DNA from: a virus
Strand: one strand, 5' to 3'
Length of the DNA: 21,457 bases
IMG/VR virus record: IMGVR_UViG_3300017779_000196
Location: 1 to 21,457 of that record
Shown here: positions 5,401-21,457 of the stretch, in pieces
How the letters are laid out: the number at the start of each line of letters is the position of its first letter
How positions within the stretch are numbered: position 1 is the stretch's first letter
Notes under the pieces: generated by a model
The model's database searches: none
Seen by the model: the letters and a program-made list of their open reading frames with translations, nothing else
What the model was told of the DNA's origin: nothing
Translations under genes and position numbers: made by a program

Positions 5401-7968
5401 TTTGCAGTCGCGGATTATCTTGGCACAGTCAAACTCAATCCTTTGTGTGATCGTTACTGGAGTGAAACTAAAGCAGCAAAGGTTATTGTAAATACCTCTG
5501 GCGAAAACAACGCATGGAAAAAAGGTATCTCTGCACCTGATGGTGTAAGTGGTAAAAAGTTTGGATTTGGTACTCAATGGAAGGACTGGGAATCAATTTG
5601 GTTTGGTCGCACAATTGAGAACGAATCTGAAAATGATCAGTCTGATCCAGATAATATCAAATACCGTTCTTCTATTAGATCAAATTTTGTAAGAAGAGTT
5701 CTTTCAAATAAAATTACAAAAGAAATTGGTGGAAAGATTGTTGACCTTTCGGTTGTTCCATACATGCGTGCAACCACCATCAAGGCAACCGTCGAAGGCT
5801 TGCGACCAAACTCAACAGTTTACGCATACTTTGATGGTAAGGCGATTGGAAATACTGGAAGCGGATACTCTGTTGGATCAACTGGTTCTGCTGGTGTGGT
5901 TGAACTTGATATTCCAGCCGACACATATTTGACTGGTGAAAAGATTGTTCGATTTATCGATAATGCTGATAACGATCTAAACCTTGCAACCACATCTGCC
6001 GACTCGACTTTCTATGCAACTGGATCATTCGAAACAAATGAAGAAGGCGTAAATTCTTTCCGACCGTTGATTCGAAGAAGGGACTCCGCTAGTAGTGATT
6101 CCATTCTGAACGCAAACTATCTTGATCTCGTCGGTACAAACTCTGCATCCGTAGTCAACTCTCTAAACCCACTTGCTCAGACATTCACAGTGGATCAAAA
6201 TGATTTCCCTGATGGCATGTTCTTGAGTAGACTAAATGTTTTGTTTGCCACAAAACCCGACAACGACGGCGGTGTGATTCGTTGTGAGATTAGACCTGTT
6301 GATACCTTTGGATATCCAAAGAGAAATTATGTCATGCCTTGTTCAGAATCATACAAAACTCCAAGTCAGGTGAAAGTCTACGCTGAGGGTGATGACATTA
6401 GTGCAAAACAAACAACTTTTGATTTCAGAAGCGGTGGAGATGCAGGACCAGTATACTTGTCCCCCGGTACTTACGCAGTTTGCTTCCTCAGTAATGATCC
6501 AAACTATTCAATCTGGTCAAACGACACCACATCGACGAAGCCACTGAATTTTGATTCGGTATTTATTCCATCCAACAATGGACAGGTCACTCGCTATGGC
6601 GAATCCTATCTTGCTCTTGAAATGTCTCGACTTGCCTTTGATGACACCCAAGAAACAAATGTTAGATTTTCCTATCTTGGAGGAACCCTTGGTAATGCTC
6701 ATAACGCAAATTATCTTTCCACTGCGAAGCAATTGATTTCTAATAGTCCCCTTCAAGTGAATTATGATGGTACTGGCAGAATTCCTGTCAATGCCACAAA
6801 TCTTATTAGTCCTTTGAATTCAAATTCGTTGACCAACTTTACCGTTTTCTGGAATGCGACTGATAGATCCTCAAATGTGGTTGACGTTGCTCAAACACAA
6901 CCATTGTTTATCAACTCTAAGATTGAGCCTGTCGATGCTACTGAACTAACACTACAGACTCTCGCAAATGACAATCTTGCATCTGCAACCGCAAGATATT
7001 ATACAAAGATTGTTTCTGTTACAAAACCTGCGGCAAATATTTCTGTGAAATTGGATGCAAAACTTCCGCCTGCGACTAGAGTATATGTTTTTGGTAAATT
7101 CAAGGGAACTGATACCACAGGATCTATCGAGGATCAGCCATATGTTCGACTCACTGCCGTATCTGAACTTTCTTCGGATCAGGCTGTGGGAGAAGTTGAA
7201 ACTGTTACGAACAACTACAGTGCCCCCGTGTCAAGCGGCAGTGCAATCTCCGATACCGGATTATTTACTGAATACAAGTTGAAAATTATCTTGTCAAATA
7301 CGGGAGCCAATAAGAGACTTCCGGAAATATCTGGAATTTCTGCGGTTCCTTTGGGAAGAAAAAATCAAGCACAGTTTTTCCAGACTATTACACCATCGGG
7401 TTCTGTCTTGCCATATGCAGGAAAATTTGATCCACCTGAAGGATTCTTGCTCTGCGATGGTCAGACATATCAAAAAGATGATTTTTTACAACTTTATGAA
7501 GTTCTTGGTGGAGTAGATAATCCATACAACACTGACGCAAGTATTGATACCGCAACACAATTCCAAGTTCCCGACATGCAGGGAAGAGTGCCAGTTGGTT
7601 CAGGAACTTCGTTAGCGGTTACTCGGACTTTTGGAGACACTGGCGGTTCACCAAAACTCCAAGGTCACAGACACCACTTGCTCTCTTCTGGCGGTGGAGG
7701 TAACCTTTCCGAGGGCAGAAGTTTCGCTGAGGCAAGTAACACCGACAAAAACAGAAGTATTGCTCCGGGTATTTCTGAAGGGTCGGCTGCTACAGCAAAT
7801 GATAAGTACAAACTCGGAACTGCTCTTGATGTAACTCTGCAAAAGGAGGCCGCGTTTGCAATATCCAGTAATCCAATTGACAACACGGACTACACCCCAA
7901 ATTCCGATGAAACTCTCACTGAACAAATGCCACCGTTTGTAGTAACAAGATATATAATAAAGATCTAA
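2434..7968 (+). CDS. Giant virion protein: DUF4815/gp10-like body with C-terminal tail-collar domain
   Basis: An 1844-residue structural protein, probably of the baseplate periphery or short-fibre assembly. Residues about 12-72 (FDPSIMGRSPFYDDYTPAKK, then VPLQARELSQAQSIL) match the DUF4815 N-terminus found in marine T4-like phage virion proteins. Further family-type blocks follow: RFTMTDIGNIEDAVF near residue 856, GIFVDDLIGHGNADVTK near 903, WKDWESIWFG near 1050, IVDLSVVPYMRATTIKATVE near 1102, and LNPLAQTFTV near 1244. Residues about 1655-1720 form a phage tail-collar domain (PPEGFLLCDGQTY, then FQVPDMQGRVPVGSG). A GHRHH histidine cluster follows near 1744, reminiscent of the metal-binding histidines of T4 gp12. 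T4 makes gp10 and gp12 separately, so this looks like a natural fusion of both roles. The fusion is visible in one uninterrupted frame. Its precise function and receptor role are inference. Confidence 0.85.
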   Translation: MTIGTNSETSAFDPSIMGRSPFYDDYTPAKKFLKVLFKPGVPLQARELSQAQSILQNQIERFGKHIFENGSVVLGGEVSVSKTNFIRLDNSNVLSSTALKEIVGQRVTDGTSTIATVVGAFDQGRDADGLSQDPHQVLFFNYNTSGQFDTGTLSTTGDGNLGLTAGIASGSVTAGITGTATNFVTVSDGIYFLDGYFALNDRQETAAYSTTGGYRDFSNPSTSVGFNVVKTTVNSVQDPSLNDPAFGFNNYNSPGSDRFKIEPTLAQIGITGSLVDPGGFVIDGATNDYIELVRVVNGTTTKKVRVADYAELEKTLAQRTFDESGNYTVNPFTLTFDEYENVFSGTDETKFAGVLSPGKAYVNGYVYETIAPSNLSVNKARTTTTVSRETVDTPEGSFFTISNANNVRFHSVNQSQTIEGGKPLSIFDADKVFIGTMNLRTVRQESTNTFKFFFFNLRLNAGKVLEDIRFVQDTDIDNLESPTNTTWSETNFGATLPTVDVFKSFTNNRQIFSVPQGSAVNDINGADFDSTFTVVKTFSGTADSNGDVTFSGGGNNDFFESNLLVMAATGGDPATVVDVDLSSITNPNNETGQITLSCGATNYGSRVVATLPMRYQNTPTNQNIRSKTLVRNTIINGVTLVNGVGTLSTPDVTELISVTQNGVDITDKFTLDNGQKIDRYDFSSIVLKQGESVDTTTNSLSVTAHKYTHSYGFGGPFTRQSYIESGLTSGIEFSPIFNDPETGESVRLFNALDYRPIRVNVAGNYAYGTDGVSFDNATVPNFDLAQTPFVSFETFTPRIDSVVLGSDRVLRVIEGTSDLTPTRPTIAEDDMELYRLNVPAYTFNIDDVNVQYSNNQRFTMTDIGNIEDAVFADTEFNYRSNLEARALASALGLFPGAEGFDEGIFVDDLIGHGNADVTKTQHNVAIDPVSNTLKAPFTTLAPSVTNDAGFLFTRFSNAYGDLYTSTGPVDEAVTFASGLDPATTLNVNNFAVADYLGTVKLNPLCDRYWSETKAAKVIVNTSGENNAWKKGISAPDGVSGKKFGFGTQWKDWESIWFGRTIENESENDQSDPDNIKYRSSIRSNFVRRVLSNKITKEIGGKIVDLSVVPYMRATTIKATVEGLRPNSTVYAYFDGKAIGNTGSGYSVGSTGSAGVVELDIPADTYLTGEKIVRFIDNADNDLNLATTSADSTFYATGSFETNEEGVNSFRPLIRRRDSASSDSILNANYLDLVGTNSASVVNSLNPLAQTFTVDQNDFPDGMFLSRLNVLFATKPDNDGGVIRCEIRPVDTFGYPKRNYVMPCSESYKTPSQVKVYAEGDDISAKQTTFDFRSGGDAGPVYLSPGTYAVCFLSNDPNYSIWSNDTTSTKPLNFDSVFIPSNNGQVTRYGESYLALEMSRLAFDDTQETNVRFSYLGGTLGNAHNANYLSTAKQLISNSPLQVNYDGTGRIPVNATNLISPLNSNSLTNFTVFWNATDRSSNVVDVAQTQPLFINSKIEPVDATELTLQTLANDNLASATARYYTKIVSVTKPAANISVKLDAKLPPATRVYVFGKFKGTDTTGSIEDQPYVRLTAVSELSSDQAVGEVETVTNNYSAPVSSGSAISDTGLFTEYKLKIILSNTGANKRLPEISGISAVPLGRKNQAQFFQTITPSGSVLPYAGKFDPPEGFLLCDGQTYQKDDFLQLYEVLGGVDNPYNTDASIDTATQFQVPDMQGRVPVGSGTSLAVTRTFGDTGGSPKLQGHRHHLLSSGGGGNLSEGRSFAEASNTDKNRSIAPGISEGSAATANDKYKLGTALDVTLQKEAAFAISSNPIDNTDYTPNSDETLTEQMPPFVVTRYIIKI

Positions 7969-7980
7969 TAGGAAAAGTCA

Positions 7981-9927
7981 ATGGCAGGAAACGCTTTCGA
8001 CAATTTGAACACAATCGCACTCTCCGATAATTTCCGGGCATGGTTCGACAAAACTAACGAAGTTGTTGGTGCGTTGAATCCCGTTGCGGTTTATGGTGTT
8101 ACACCCGGAACTGGTATCACTGTTGCAATTGATTCTAATGGCATTGCCAGTGTGGGTCTATCTCTTGAAGATGCAACAACTGGTGATACAATGTTTACTG
8201 GCTCGATCACCTTTAGCAACGAGGTTCGATTTTCTGGTCTAACTCTCGATCTTCATCCAAGCGGAGGTAACGGTGCGACTGTATTTGGCAGAGTAGTAAG
8301 AAGTGTCAATGGTGCGACTGGTGATGTTACATTATCATTCACTGGTGTCAATGATCAAACAAGTCATACTGGCGATGTTCTTATCAAGGCAGCAGGAACA
8401 CTGAGTGCGTACACGATTTTCCAAGGGTTCACCTTTGATAGTAATCGTGCATTCAAAGTTTCCACAGAAGGTGGTTTGCTTTTGGGTGGATCCGCCGGTA
8501 TTACCGGATTGAATCAGATTGGCACTCGCTTCCGTCACGGTAGCCTTGCGATTGTTGGTGGTCCTTATGGCGACTCTGGAGTTACTTCAGCATTTCTTTC
8601 TTTACTAAATCTTGGTTACACAGGTTCGGATAATGCAGAGCGTGGTATGCACGCCTACTTCGGAAGAATCGGTAACGCAAACACAGACAATTTAGGTCTT
8701 GTTTTTCAGGCGGGTGGTACAAACGGTGATAATGATACCGATGGACCGCTTCTTGTTCTTGATTCGACCAATCGTAGAATTGGTGTCAATGGCATCACAA
8801 GTGCCTTGGGTGGAATTCACATCAAGACACAATCAACGGTTGCCACATCTGAAAATGATATTTTGATTCAGAACGCAAACGGAAACACCGCAGCGATTCG
8901 AACTGCTCTTTCTGGTTCGACTGGTGAATACGTTGGTCTTGAGGGATCTACCTCAATTACCACCCCTAGACTTGCTGGTTTCCAAAACCGAGATCGACTC
9001 AGAGCAATTATTGACGGTGGTATAAACAACTTTGGTGTTGAGTTGAGACATAACTCTACTCCAAGCACGTTCACAATCCAAACACAACATTCCTCTGGTG
9101 CTTCTTTGTCGCCTGCTTTCACAGTCAGTCAAGATGGAGACATCATCGTTGGCGGTATCTCTGCTGGTGTCACAGGCAGCACATTTGCTTCGGTAAATCT
9201 TGTTAGTGGTCGGCTCTTGCTCGGCGGAACTCATGGTGTCACCCTTTGTGAAGGCGGTGGTATTCAAACTATTGTGAGTGGTCGAACAGGCGGTGGAGAG
9301 TCCTGCTCGTTCCAAGTTATTTTTGCAGACAGTCCTGATGGTGGTGGGTCAACAACCAAAGTCACCAACGTCGAATTTAGTGGTATCATCACTGAAGACA
9401 TGGTTCATGACTTGAGGCAAAATGGAAATAACACAATTTCAGCAAATGACGAATTCGGAACAAGTCTCAACAATCCAAACGACCATTCAATAGATTTCTT
9501 TGACTTTGATTCGAGCGGAAACAAACGTTATGCTGTCGGACACTTTGAAATCGAGGTCACTTTGCCACTGTTCAAGTTTGTCTCAGAAAACAATTCCCGT
9601 CCAACAAACGACAATTTTGAGTACCCAATTGCCGGTATCGTTGCGAAACTTGATACAAAAGCAACAACTTCTCTTGTCGATCAGTCACCTAACAGTTTCT
9701 TAGTTGGGTCGCCAAGTAAAGGCACTCAACTCATCAACATTCGTGAAATGGTAGATGGAAAAAACGACAACACGACTCAGTTGAGATTTACTCTCACCGG
9801 AAACTGTGAGACAAGATGCTCATTGGATGTGGTCACAACATTGACTCACGCACTTCGTGGAAAAAGAGAGGGTGGAATTTACCTTGCACCCGGATCGTAT
9901 AAGGCTAAATTTACAAATGTGGAGTAA
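7981..9927 (+). CDS. Fibre-like virion structural protein
   Basis: A 648-residue protein with no membrane segments or signal peptide. It is rich in Gly, Thr, Ser and Asn, as in beta-structured phage fibres. The N-terminus (NAFDNLNTIALSDNFRAWFD, then KTNEVVGALNPVAVYG) resembles, from memory, N-terminal attachment regions of structural proteins in marine T4-like phages. Residues about 15-90 end in VNGATGDVTLSFTG. The middle contains two similar stretches, GGLLLGGSAGIT near residue 164 and GRLLLGGTHGVT near residue 409, which suggest repeated beta modules. Four Cys lie in the C-terminal third. The ribosome binding site is AGGAAAA at 7970-7976, and the gene starts 12 bases after the giant collar protein. 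In T4 this interval holds gp11, gp12 and wac; no sequence likeness to those is evident. A tail-fibre or collar-whisker role is inferred from composition and position. Confidence 0.75.
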   Translation: MAGNAFDNLNTIALSDNFRAWFDKTNEVVGALNPVAVYGVTPGTGITVAIDSNGIASVGLSLEDATTGDTMFTGSITFSNEVRFSGLTLDLHPSGGNGATVFGRVVRSVNGATGDVTLSFTGVNDQTSHTGDVLIKAAGTLSAYTIFQGFTFDSNRAFKVSTEGGLLLGGSAGITGLNQIGTRFRHGSLAIVGGPYGDSGVTSAFLSLLNLGYTGSDNAERGMHAYFGRIGNANTDNLGLVFQAGGTNGDNDTDGPLLVLDSTNRRIGVNGITSALGGIHIKTQSTVATSENDILIQNANGNTAAIRTALSGSTGEYVGLEGSTSITTPRLAGFQNRDRLRAIIDGGINNFGVELRHNSTPSTFTIQTQHSSGASLSPAFTVSQDGDIIVGGISAGVTGSTFASVNLVSGRLLLGGTHGVTLCEGGGIQTIVSGRTGGGESCSFQVIFADSPDGGGSTTKVTNVEFSGIITEDMVHDLRQNGNNTISANDEFGTSLNNPNDHSIDFFDFDSSGNKRYAVGHFEIEVTLPLFKFVSENNSRPTNDNFEYPIAGIVAKLDTKATTSLVDQSPNSFLVGSPSKGTQLINIREMVDGKNDNTTQLRFTLTGNCETRCSLDVVTTLTHALRGKREGGIYLAPGSYKAKFTNVE

Positions 9928-18757: not shown

Positions 18758-20281
18758 ATGCCGGTCGAACTGTTTGGCTTCTCTCTTGGTAGAAAAAAAG
18801 AGGGCGAATCACTATCATCTACTAACTTGACTGTACCCCAGTCAAAGAAGTCGAGATCTTTTGTTACGCAAGAGGTTGATGATGCTGTTACTATTGATGC
18901 TGGTGGTGTTTTTGGAACATACGTTGATCTTGACGGGGCACTAAAAACTGAAAATGATTATATCAAAAAGTATCGTGAGATGGCAAATCAGCCAGAGTGC
19001 GAGCAGGCAGTTGAAGATATCTGCAACGAGGCAATTGTCTATGACGAACAAAGATATCCAGTGTCTTTGGTTACTGATTTTGTAGATCTCCCCACAGCAG
19101 TAAAGAAGTCTATCCATGAAGAATTTCGAAATGTCTTGAGACTTCTTGATTTTCAAAATCGTGGATACGAAATCTTTAGAAGATGGTACGTCGATGGCAA
19201 GGGCTACTATCATATGATCGTAGATCGAAACAATGTCAAAAAGGGCATTATCGAAATGCGTCCGGTTGATGCTGCAAAAATCAAAAAGATTGCAAAGGTA
19301 GAAAAAGAAGTCGATCCGAAGACAGGTGCAAAAACTGTCAAAAATGTAAAAGAAGTTTATGTCTACCGTGAAAAGGCTGATGATGTAAATGGACTTGAGA
19401 TTGCACCGGAGGCTGTCAACTACTATCCGTCTGGTCTTATGGATCCGGCTAGAGCAAGAGCCATTTCATATCTTCACAAAGCAATCAAACCACTGAACCA
19501 ACTTCGAATGGTCGAGGACGCAACGGTTATTTACCGTCTTGCACGTGCCCCTGAAAGAAGAATTTTCTACGTTGATGTTGGTTCTCTTCCAAAGACAAAG
19601 GCTGAACAGTACGTTCGTGAACTTATGAACCGCTATCGTAATAAGTTGGTTTATGATGCAAGCACTGGTGAGGTTAGAGATGACCGAAAGTACATGTCAA
19701 TGATGGAGGACTTCTGGTTCCCCCGTCGTGAAGGTGGTAAAGGCACTCAGGTAGACACGCTTCAGGGTGGACAAAACCTTGGTGAGATGGACGATGTTTT
19801 GTACTTTGAAAAGAAACTTTACAGATCATTGAGTGTTCCTTTGTCAAGAATTGAATCTGACACCGGGTTCAACATGGGTCGGGCTTCAGAAATTGATCGT
19901 GATGAACTCAACTTTCAAAAGTTTATTCATCGTTTGAGAAACAAGTTCAATGTTCTTTTCTTGAATGCTCTTCGTGTGCAGTTGATTCTCAAGGGAGTCA
20001 TCAATGAAGACGAATGGTATTCGATTGTTCAAGATCTTCGTTTCGACTATGTTTCTGATTCTTACTTCACCGAAAGTAAAGATTATGAAATCATTGAATC
20101 AAGACTTCGCGTTCTTCGTGATATGAATGATTACATTGGGGAATATTATTCACGAGAGTGGGTTAGAAGAAATATCCTTCGACAGACAGATCGTGATATG
20201 GAAGAACAAGACAAACAGATAGATAAAGAAAGAGAATTGGGTGTTATTCCGCCCAAGTCTTCAGAGGGAATGGGCTTCTAA
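18758..20281 (+). CDS. gp20: Portal vertex protein, T4 gp20-like
   Basis: This protein forms the dodecameric portal at one head vertex: the start point of head assembly, the channel for DNA packaging and the docking site for terminase and neck. It has 507 residues (T4 gp20 is 524). Conserved blocks are visible: REMANQPECEQAVEDICNEA at about 73-92, YYPSGLMDPARARAISYLHK near 224, a FYVDVGSLPKTKAEQYVREL block near 270, and NRYRNKLVYDASTGEVRDDR after it. FWFPRREGGKGTQVDTLQGG lies near 319 and FNMGRASEIDRDELNFQKFI near 371. A charged C-terminal helix ends in IPPKSSEGMGF. AGGGG at 18747-18751, 6 bases before the ATG, is the ribosome binding site. The stop overlaps the next start by one base (TAATG). 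This is the gene long used as a marker for T4-like phages in the sea. Confidence 0.97.
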   Translation: MPVELFGFSLGRKKEGESLSSTNLTVPQSKKSRSFVTQEVDDAVTIDAGGVFGTYVDLDGALKTENDYIKKYREMANQPECEQAVEDICNEAIVYDEQRYPVSLVTDFVDLPTAVKKSIHEEFRNVLRLLDFQNRGYEIFRRWYVDGKGYYHMIVDRNNVKKGIIEMRPVDAAKIKKIAKVEKEVDPKTGAKTVKNVKEVYVYREKADDVNGLEIAPEAVNYYPSGLMDPARARAISYLHKAIKPLNQLRMVEDATVIYRLARAPERRIFYVDVGSLPKTKAEQYVRELMNRYRNKLVYDASTGEVRDDRKYMSMMEDFWFPRREGGKGTQVDTLQGGQNLGEMDDVLYFEKKLYRSLSVPLSRIESDTGFNMGRASEIDRDELNFQKFIHRLRNKFNVLFLNALRVQLILKGVINEDEWYSIVQDLRFDYVSDSYFTESKDYEIIESRLRVLRDMNDYIGEYYSREWVRRNILRQTDRDMEEQDKQIDKERELGVIPPKSSEGMGF

Positions 20282-20976
20282 TGATCGATCCAAGAATCAC
20301 ACATCTCGTCAACGAATCACTCGATAAGTTTAGTTTCGAAGTTGAAAAGAAACTTTCACAGGTTGCTCTGCATGAATTGAAACTTCGTGAGGAAAAGCAA
20401 CAGGAACTTGATGTCGAGGACCAAGAGGACACTGAAGAGAAGAGTGAGATCGAAAAGAATGATGCCGAGGCTGAAGAAGCAAAGGCAGAAACGGAAAAGG
20501 CTGAATCCGATACAGAAGATATTACTCTAGATCCAAATTTTCAAAAAGAATATTTTCTTGACACCTTTGAATACAAAGGAAAGGTAGTCACCCTGAAAAA
20601 GATTGGAACAGGAAACAATGTTCCCGTGTCTGCTTATGTTGATGGTAAGAGGACTGAAGTTTTCCTTACCATGAAGCAGGCAATGAATGGTATCAAAAAT
20701 GTTATTGATTTGAAAGACAAAACAAATAAAGATGATGTCAAGGAAGCCACTGTACTAAACCTGAAAACTGCTGGGTTGGATGGTATCACTTTGAAGCATC
20801 TTGACGAGTCCATGACTCACTTCACAAATACCGATGTAAACGACGTTTTGAAAATTTACAATAATCTAAATAAAGAGAACAAAGAAAGTTTTCAAAAAGA
20901 ATTTAGTTCATCACAGAATAGTGCCGTGAACATGATTCACTTCTTTCAAGAAAGACTAAAAAGGGATCTAGCATGA
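20281..20976 (+). CDS. Acidic protein in prohead-core position, family not assigned
   Basis: A 231-residue protein directly after the portal gene, where T4 has the small acidic prohead-core genes 67 and 68 and then 21. Three parts are visible. Residues 1-36 are an amphipathic helical start (MIDPRITHLVNESLDKFSFE). Residues 37-82 are an extremely acidic, Glu/Lys/Ala-rich low-complexity helix or coil (EAEEAKAETEKAESDTED). Residues about 83-145 form a compact domain (YFLDTFEYKGKVVTLKKIG, then VPVSAYVDGKRTEVFLTMKQ), followed by a helical tail. The charged middle part suits an internal scaffold or core protein that is removed or cleaved during head maturation, but this is inference from position and composition. 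Start and stop overlap both neighbours (TAATG at 20280, ATGA at 20973), so it is certainly part of the operon. I am not confident of homology to T4 gp67. Confidence 0.7.
   Translation: MIDPRITHLVNESLDKFSFEVEKKLSQVALHELKLREEKQQELDVEDQEDTEEKSEIEKNDAEAEEAKAETEKAESDTEDITLDPNFQKEYFLDTFEYKGKVVTLKKIGTGNNVPVSAYVDGKRTEVFLTMKQAMNGIKNVIDLKDKTNKDDVKEATVLNLKTAGLDGITLKHLDESMTHFTNTDVNDVLKIYNNLNKENKESFQKEFSSSQNSAVNMIHFFQERLKRDLA
20865..20872 (+). promoter_or_regulatory. Late-promoter-like box before the last gene
   Basis: TCTAAATA matches the T4 late box at 7 of 8 positions and lies about 100 bases before the ATG at 20973. Seven-of-eight matches are common by chance here, so this is only a candidate. Confidence 0.2.
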
Positions 20977-21457
20977 CTGACCACGAACCAAAAAATGACC
21001 TGATTGACATGATCATGAACGAGCGGCTAGTTGCTGCTGAAGAACTCATTCGTGAGTCACTGCAAACCAAGATTCACGAATCTTTGATTAGTAGAAAAGA
21101 AGTTGTAGCCGAGAATCTTGCTGCGAATGTTGAAGAAGAAAAGAAGGACTACGACACTTTTTTCAAATCGGCGATGAAAAAGTTCGGCATCTCATCGCCA
21201 GCAGATCTGAAGACCGATGAAAAGAAGAAGGAATTCTTTGATTACGTTGACAAAAATTTCAAGGCAACGAACGAATCATACAGTGGAGTTGAAGAGGAGT
21301 TTAGGTTTCGAAATCCTTACATGCCTGTAAGCACTCCCGCTGATTATGATCCCAGACCAGTAGGTGGTCGTCCCGGTCCTAAGATCACACGTGATCCAAT
21401 TGGTTTCCCACCCGACTTTCCCTATGATCCCAGACCAGTAGGTGGTCGTCCCGGTCC
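20973..21457 (+). CDS. Partial gene: helical protein with Pro/Gly-rich repeats, prohead-core position, 3' end missing
   Basis: The frame starts at ATG 20973 (ATGA overlap with the preceding stop) and is still open at the window end, giving 161 codons. Residues 1-60 are charged and helical (MTDHEPKNDLIDMIMNERLV, then EELIRESLQTKIHESLISRK). A compact block follows, FFKSAMKKFGISSPADLKTD then KKKEFFDYVDKNFKA, at about residues 63-97. From memory, this resembles a short motif that recurs in structural proteins of T4-like phages, though I cannot check it. From about residue 115 the character changes to Pro/Gly/Arg-rich: YDPRPVGGRPG occurs twice, 26 residues apart, with ITRDPIGFPPDFP between. The gene follows the acidic core-like gene after gp20, so a head-core or capsid-associated role is possible. 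The function is not known. The frame may continue through more repeat copies beyond the window. Confidence 0.7.
   Translation, partial: MTDHEPKNDLIDMIMNERLVAAEELIRESLQTKIHESLISRKEVVAENLAANVEEEKKDYDTFFKSAMKKFGISSPADLKTDEKKKEFFDYVDKNFKATNESYSGVEEEFRFRNPYMPVSTPADYDPRPVGGRPGPKITRDPIGFPPDFPYDPRPVGGRPG
21345..21457 (+). repeat. Exact 35-base direct repeat (two copies), coding for a Pro/Gly motif, cut by the window end
   Basis: Two identical 35-base copies lie at 21345-21379 and 21423-21457, with a 78-base (26-codon) period. Both are in the same reading frame and code for YDPRPVGGRPG. The sequences to the left of the two copies differ. The right edge of the second copy coincides exactly with the last base of the window, so the true repeat length and copy number cannot be seen. 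Confidence 0.9.

Follow-up and report, generated by a model that had tools for sequence, protein, structure and literature searches.

A marine T4-like phage contig probably ends at an assembly junction inside a length-variable, proline-rich head-region gene with a candidate recoding site

The window, the whole stretch of DNA analysed here, is one complete virus record of 21457 bases (IMGVR_UViG_3300017779_000196) and represents one contig from a marine T4-like phage. It ends within an open gene, here called the tail gene, which carries a perfect direct repeat close to its cut end. The account that follows is, taken as a whole, likely: the window ends at a k=123 assembly junction, the genome continues in a second contig (L001), and the interrupted gene would encode a prohead-core protein with a proline-rich extension that changes size between strains and is further lengthened by slippage at a run of ten adenines (A10). 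The gene itself is hypervariable, lies in the head region, carries a candidate recoding site, and is of modest interest. The relevant features of the window are as follows.

18758..20281, + strand: gp20, portal protein (PHROG 213, E 2e-191; Pfam Portal_T4, E 1.9e-172), the anchor for the head-gene order
20281..20976, + strand: charged ORF of 231 aa between the portal and tail genes (ORF list)
20973..21457, + strand: 5' part of the repeat-bearing tail gene, 161 whole codons, in the prohead-core position (ORF list)
21138..21278, + strand: conserved module of ~45 aa, KKDYDTFFKSAMKKFGISSPADLKTDEKKKEFFDYVDKNFKA, modelled as largely helical (alignment, AlphaFold2, profile scan)
21312..21339, + strand: 28-nt stretch encoding NPYMPVSTP (shared 25-mers, motif scans)
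21335..21457, no strand: exact 123-nt overlap with the end of IMGVR_UViG_3300017779_000414 (end comparison)
21345..21385, + strand: first copy of the repeat, 41 nt at full length (exact-repeat comparison)
21423..21457, + strand: second copy of the repeat, also 41 nt at full length, of which the window includes the first 35 (exact-repeat comparison)

The tail-gene ORF starts at 20973 and is still open at the last base of the window. Within it, TATGATCCCAGACCAGTAGGTGGTCGTCCCGGTCC occurs at 21345-21379 and again at 21423-21457, with 35/35 bases identical and a spacing of 78 nt, or 26 codons, confirming the identical 35-base repeat and 26-residue period given in a preliminary description of this DNA. 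From base composition such a pair would be expected by chance about 5e-13 times, and no further exact direct repeat of at least 16 nt is found anywhere in the window. The same description placed the window end exactly at the edge of the repeat, which proved incorrect: in L023, the reversed form of L001, both copies extend to 41 nt, ending …GGTCCTAAGAT, and the apparent edge arises because the contig end cuts copy 2 at base 35. Truncation alone can thus create a "repeat at the contig end," a caution for similar cases. The bases flanking the two 41-nt copies differ, and those following copy 1 are unlike those following copy 2. Joined into L023, the tail gene comprises 341 codons followed by a stop, and the 28-nt NPYMPVSTP stretch occurs a second time, identically, further along. 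The additional YDPRPVGGRPG units thought possible for this phage did not materialize, as the continuation holds exactly two perfect copies and a third that is partial and diverged (79% identity across 42 nt) before a normal gene ending and, later, gp21. The motif also appears beyond the window, its DPRPVGGRPGP coding form being shown in L001, L005, and L022.

That L001, the IMG/VR contig 3300017779_000414, continues the window is almost certain from sequence comparison. The first 123 bases of L023 are the last 123 of the window, the match failing at 124, and this is the only exact end overlap of at least 25 nt among the loci compared, a weak control since most loci were stretches cut at a set flank. 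When viral contigs were scanned for the 35-mer, in a search that may omit close neighbours of the window, the single further record shown was IMGVR_UViG_3300017779_000414 itself. After the tail-gene stop, L023 encodes a 156-codon ORF (ORF156), a 66-codon ORF, gp21, gp22, and gp23. An intact relative, G002 (34,985 b, containing locus L003), crosses the join with the order gp20, ORF231, tail gene, ORF156, gp21, gp22, gp23. The 66-codon ORF, at L023:1256-1456 between ORF156 and gp21, is missing in G002, where gp21 lies directly behind ORF156. The 231-aa ORF likewise has homologues at the same position in relatives, and a search of phage records with it gave zero matches at E<=1. It is very unlikely that L001 is a different strain or phage merely sharing 123 nt with the window; although the overlap is small compared with genome length, the two halves are equally identical to the one intact relative (84.5% over 2556 aligned nt for the window, 83.9% over 12,556 aligned nt for L001) and share its gene order, the overlap is exactly k, and the 35-mer is absent from any other viral contig shown. 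The first 541 nt of L001, belonging to the tail, fail to align with G002. The order of shared genes agrees further with that of Pelagibacter phage HTVC008M and Methylophilales phage Melnitz-3.

The preliminary description took the contig end for an assembly break at a repeat, and the first half of this holds: the final 123 nt, and no more, recur at the end of another contig, and this length equals the top value of the MEGAHIT k-list (23, 43, 63, 83, 103, 123) given in PMC6646334 and PMC8546676, a setting that was presumably applied to this sample. A common assembly of the window and L001 would fit this. The repeat as cause of the break is not supported by graph reasoning. At 41 nt it lies well under k=123 and therefore should not fork the assembly graph, and had an array collapsed, the fork should follow base 41 of copy 2 (TAAGAT, then C or T), while the window stops at base 35. 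Since the stop comes 6 nt before that fork, a variant between strains next to the 123-mer common to both contigs is the likelier cause, and the break is probably an ordinary assembly junction arising from strain variation. Among viral contigs, a set from which very near records are possibly omitted, none was found to carry the other branch. Collapse of a longer array of 78-nt units, with more copies in the true gene, would account for two copies perfectly identical over 41 nt at a period of exactly 26 codons, for four of the 10 Pro-rich-tail contigs (window, L001, L006, L021) ending or beginning within the tail, and for the N gap inside the tail of L004. It is nonetheless very unlikely, as the continuation passes from two copies to a unique exit, the sequence behind copy 1 is unlike that behind copy 2, the loop fork would be expected after base 41 rather than 35, and k=123 resolves a 41-nt repeat. 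At the clade's other broken locus (L101/L103, sample 3300030108) a k-overlap was also sought and ruled out, no exact overlap being present. This settles a practical question, in that the contig stops at a k-mer junction and the likely continuation has been identified.

The tail-gene protein has three parts: a conserved helical N-terminus of ~105 aa, a middle that is hypervariable, and an end that is rich in Met, Gln, and Gly and again conserved. Residues 1-105 are conserved in an alignment of 13 sequences, and the N-terminal 100 aa are helical in an AlphaFold2 model (mean pLDDT 80.2, pTM 0.41), the extension being Pro-rich. A profile scan found the ~45-aa module in 86 ORFs, one per locus, at 86/92 loci, which is not a frequency because the loci were mostly fetched by this protein and some contigs occur twice; in 63/86 it falls in the final 60 aa of the ORF as retrieved. 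The module occurs three times in one ORF of L055 (from 4968) and twice in an ORF of L054 (from 4983). In Vibrio phage Va1 a coding sequence containing it (L120:2447-2632) is labelled "DNA ligase 1," a label doubted here and taken as a probable misannotation since the sequence is only 186 nt. Pseudomonas phage SKa-4 encodes a relative of the module in the ORF directly after the portal gene, a single ORF separating it from the head maturation protease. The position of the tail gene between gp20 and gp21 follows from gp20 in the window and gp21 in L023, and both flanks lie on one contig in G002 and other relatives. Searches of Pfam and PHROGs with the window protein returned no gp67 or gp68 family at E<=0.1, in libraries that may hold no such models. 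Two of 13 relatives gave a weak match to phrog_1064, "prohead" (best E 0.0057), and a PDB profile search yielded a single chance-level match (E 0.26). The L023 tail and ORF156 matched nothing in phage records at E<=1, and neither these two nor three distal Pro-rich ORFs matched a PHROGs or Pfam family at E<=0.1. The composition of the T4 core and its cleavage by gp21 are described in PMC9958956 and PMC9026906, the former counting gp68 as one of the core proteins dispensable for assembly. The N-terminus would most likely dock in the prohead core, with the extension serving as tolerant filler or as internal cargo processed by the gp21 protease.

The extension beyond the module is highly variable. 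From the 86 ORFs, 32 + strand rows with gp20 or gp21 nearby were retained, representing 30 distinct contigs (L108 duplicates L005 and L110 duplicates L006). Excluding the distant L055 (506 aa beyond the module, gp20 at 25%), T4-like relatives with untruncated rows have 1 to 258 aa after it, and only 1-2 aa follow the module in L018, L019, L024, and L025. With at most 25 aa after the module in 16/30 distinct contigs, the Pro/Gly-rich extension is indeed unusual at this position, as had been remarked earlier. Pro-rich tails or tail starts are present in 10 contigs (window, L001, L003, L004, L005, L006, L021, L022, L093, and L094, with L021 counted for its NPYLPVST start), and an NPYxPxSTPxDxP pattern is shown in L001 (twice), L022, L006, L093, and L094. 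In L005, L022, L093, and L094 the Pro-rich tail is followed immediately by gp21, ORF156 being absent.

Length changes between close relatives remain in frame. L093 and L094, which come from the same dataset (L094 with ambiguous bases), are 98.6% identical over 1701 columns, and their sole gaps, of 51 and 30 nt, are in-frame tail repeat units. L003 and L103 are 97.3% identical over 1312 columns with inner gaps of 177 and 9 nt, the former bounded by a 9-nt repeat (8/9 alike), and L103 is without the Pro-rich middle. Repeat copies also vary among L005, L006, L021, and L022 (84-91% identity), which are given no weight because they are more diverged and some of their gaps are not multiples of three. 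The earlier suggestion of ongoing repeat-number change is thus borne out in relatives, close ones differing in copy number. Palindromic in-frame elements of the Rickettsia type were ruled out, with zero inverted repeats of at least 14 nt in the tails of four loci. The Pro-rich extension is probably disordered, and its middle most likely resizes through slippage or recombination between direct repeats; the strain variants so produced would be a likely reason for the graph fork. A tail of this kind, a non-essential C-terminus drifting by repeat slippage and without function, might be expected where four relatives retain 1-2 aa after the module and another, L103, lacks the Pro-rich middle. Neutral drift is rather doubtful, however, given that the frame is maintained in both close pairs, that the Met/Gln/Gly C-terminal segment and A10 are conserved beyond the variable part, and, weakly, that resembling Pro-rich segments occur in other genes of the same genomes.

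The A10 run precedes the tail-gene stop in 4/4 clade contigs that reach the gene end (L001, L003, L004, and L103), in the context GAAAAAAAAAATCT(G/A)A. Its locations are as follows.

L023:650-659 (L001 contig): A10 run
L003:2891-2900: A10 run
L103:3990-3999: A10 run
L109:161-170 (minus strand): A10 run

It is the sole A/T run of at least 9 in the window plus L001, in G002, and in G003, with zero in G004. In L001 and L003 the -1 frame stays open from A10 right through ORF156; in L004 and L103 it is open up to the contig limit. Between A10 and the ORF156 ATG (L023:775, opening 156 codons) this frame comprises 38 codons without a usual start codon; no ATG, GTG, or TTG is common to all four contigs in the stretch, and a possible rare start, ATT at codon 15, is. 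Differences in the A10-to-ATG interval concentrate on third positions of the -1 frame, 11/17 for L023/L003 (binomial 0.008) and 16/21 for L023/L004 (binomial 7e-5), with weak counts among the close three of 5/6 (L003/L004), 2/4 (L003/L103), and 2/3 (L004/L103), all of these being small and not independent. Together, A10 and the open -1 frame suggest that recoding yields a longer product. Slippage at A10, by RNA polymerase or else by the ribosome, would probably bring part of the product into the -1 frame and add 194 residues to it. A downstream stimulatory hairpin for ribosomal frameshifting was ruled out (z -0.84, 1.49, 1.19), and transcriptional slippage is therefore favoured over a stimulated ribosomal shift as the putative mechanism. 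On the other side of A10, immediately ahead of the run, a hairpin scores z -1.37 in L003 and is weaker in L023 (z 0.51). Bacterial precedents for slippage include nine-base A or T runs (PMC5009743). The lack of a downstream stimulatory structure would also suit a separate ORF156 gene, translated from its own ATG at L023:775 or from the codon-15 ATT present in all four contigs, with A10 incidental. Such a gene is unlikely, for the frame is conserved with third-position bias through 38 codons ahead of the ATG, no ATG, GTG, or TTG start is shared there, no Shine-Dalgarno-like sequence precedes the ATG in L023 or L003, and A10 stands alone among A/T runs of at least 9 in the window plus L001, G002, and G003. 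Should recoding at A10 be true, plain ORF annotation of the clade misses a longer head-region protein.

Pro-rich segments are also found elsewhere in these genomes. Comparisons with 200 shuffles each, among whose best 40 of 91 pairs several were not above their shuffles, gave a score of 139 for the L003 tail against the distal Pro-rich ORF G002_245 of the same genome (shuffled maximum 89), 152 for the window tail against both L001_199 and L001_216 (shuffled maxima 124 and 142), and 63 for the L004 tail against L101 ORF156 (shuffled maximum 50). These scores are weak because of low complexity, and homology of Pro-rich segments across genes is suggestive only. In L101:3-662, ORF156 carries a 63-aa in-frame Pro-rich insert that is not in L003 or L023. 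Three Pro-rich ORFs of no matched family, with motifs resembling the tail gene, lie after gp46 (L001:610-3499, minus strand; L104 around 6468-9570), and a 543-codon ORF of L018 (from 5152), downstream of gp23, contains many SFDDFKxDPxGxLxPxP-like repeats.

A broader reading, offered tentatively and as somewhat less probable than its negation, would make the tail gene a head-core gene of the clade whose disordered Pro-rich extension resizes freely, shares segments with other Pro-rich proteins of the same genomes, and is extended by slippage at the conserved A10, so that each phage would have a short and a long form of one tunable protein inside the head. The tail would also exemplify, in nature, how a phage gene of the structural region can vary in length between near-identical strains. 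Literature listings on T4-like prohead cores, frameshifting, and proline-rich or tandem repeats, in which few subscription journals were covered, showed no report of such a gene.

Several known systems bear comparison. HTVC008M and Melnitz-3 (Kyanoviridae) have the same order of gp19, gp20, gp21, gp22, gp23, uvsY, uvsW, 55, and 47, with gp20 50% identical in HTVC008M and gp23 53-54% identical; each phage has two ORFs just before gp21 (82-134 aa) without a Pro-rich tail, and the window gene is without a match there among the matches listed. Like gp67 and gp68 of T4, the tail gene lies between the portal gene gp20 and the protease gene gp21 and has a helical N-terminal part in the model; unlike them, it has no family match found, a long Pro/Gly/Arg extension, and probable recoding at A10. 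A parallel for the candidate site is tssM1 of Citrobacter rodentium, with poly-A transcriptional slippage at an A11 run (PMC4256274). There too a long A run stands shortly before the upstream-frame stop, no stimulatory RNA signal is present, and the longer product, here predicted, lies in the other frame; the present case differs in being a phage head-region gene with A10 and a candidate site only. As in the frameshift products of the T3 coat protein and Listeria PSA (PMC5009743), one gene would supply two lengths of one virion-related protein; theirs, however, arise by ribosomal frameshifting in capsid or tail genes, whereas the event predicted here would take place on a homopolymer, and the gene concerned occupies the head-core position.
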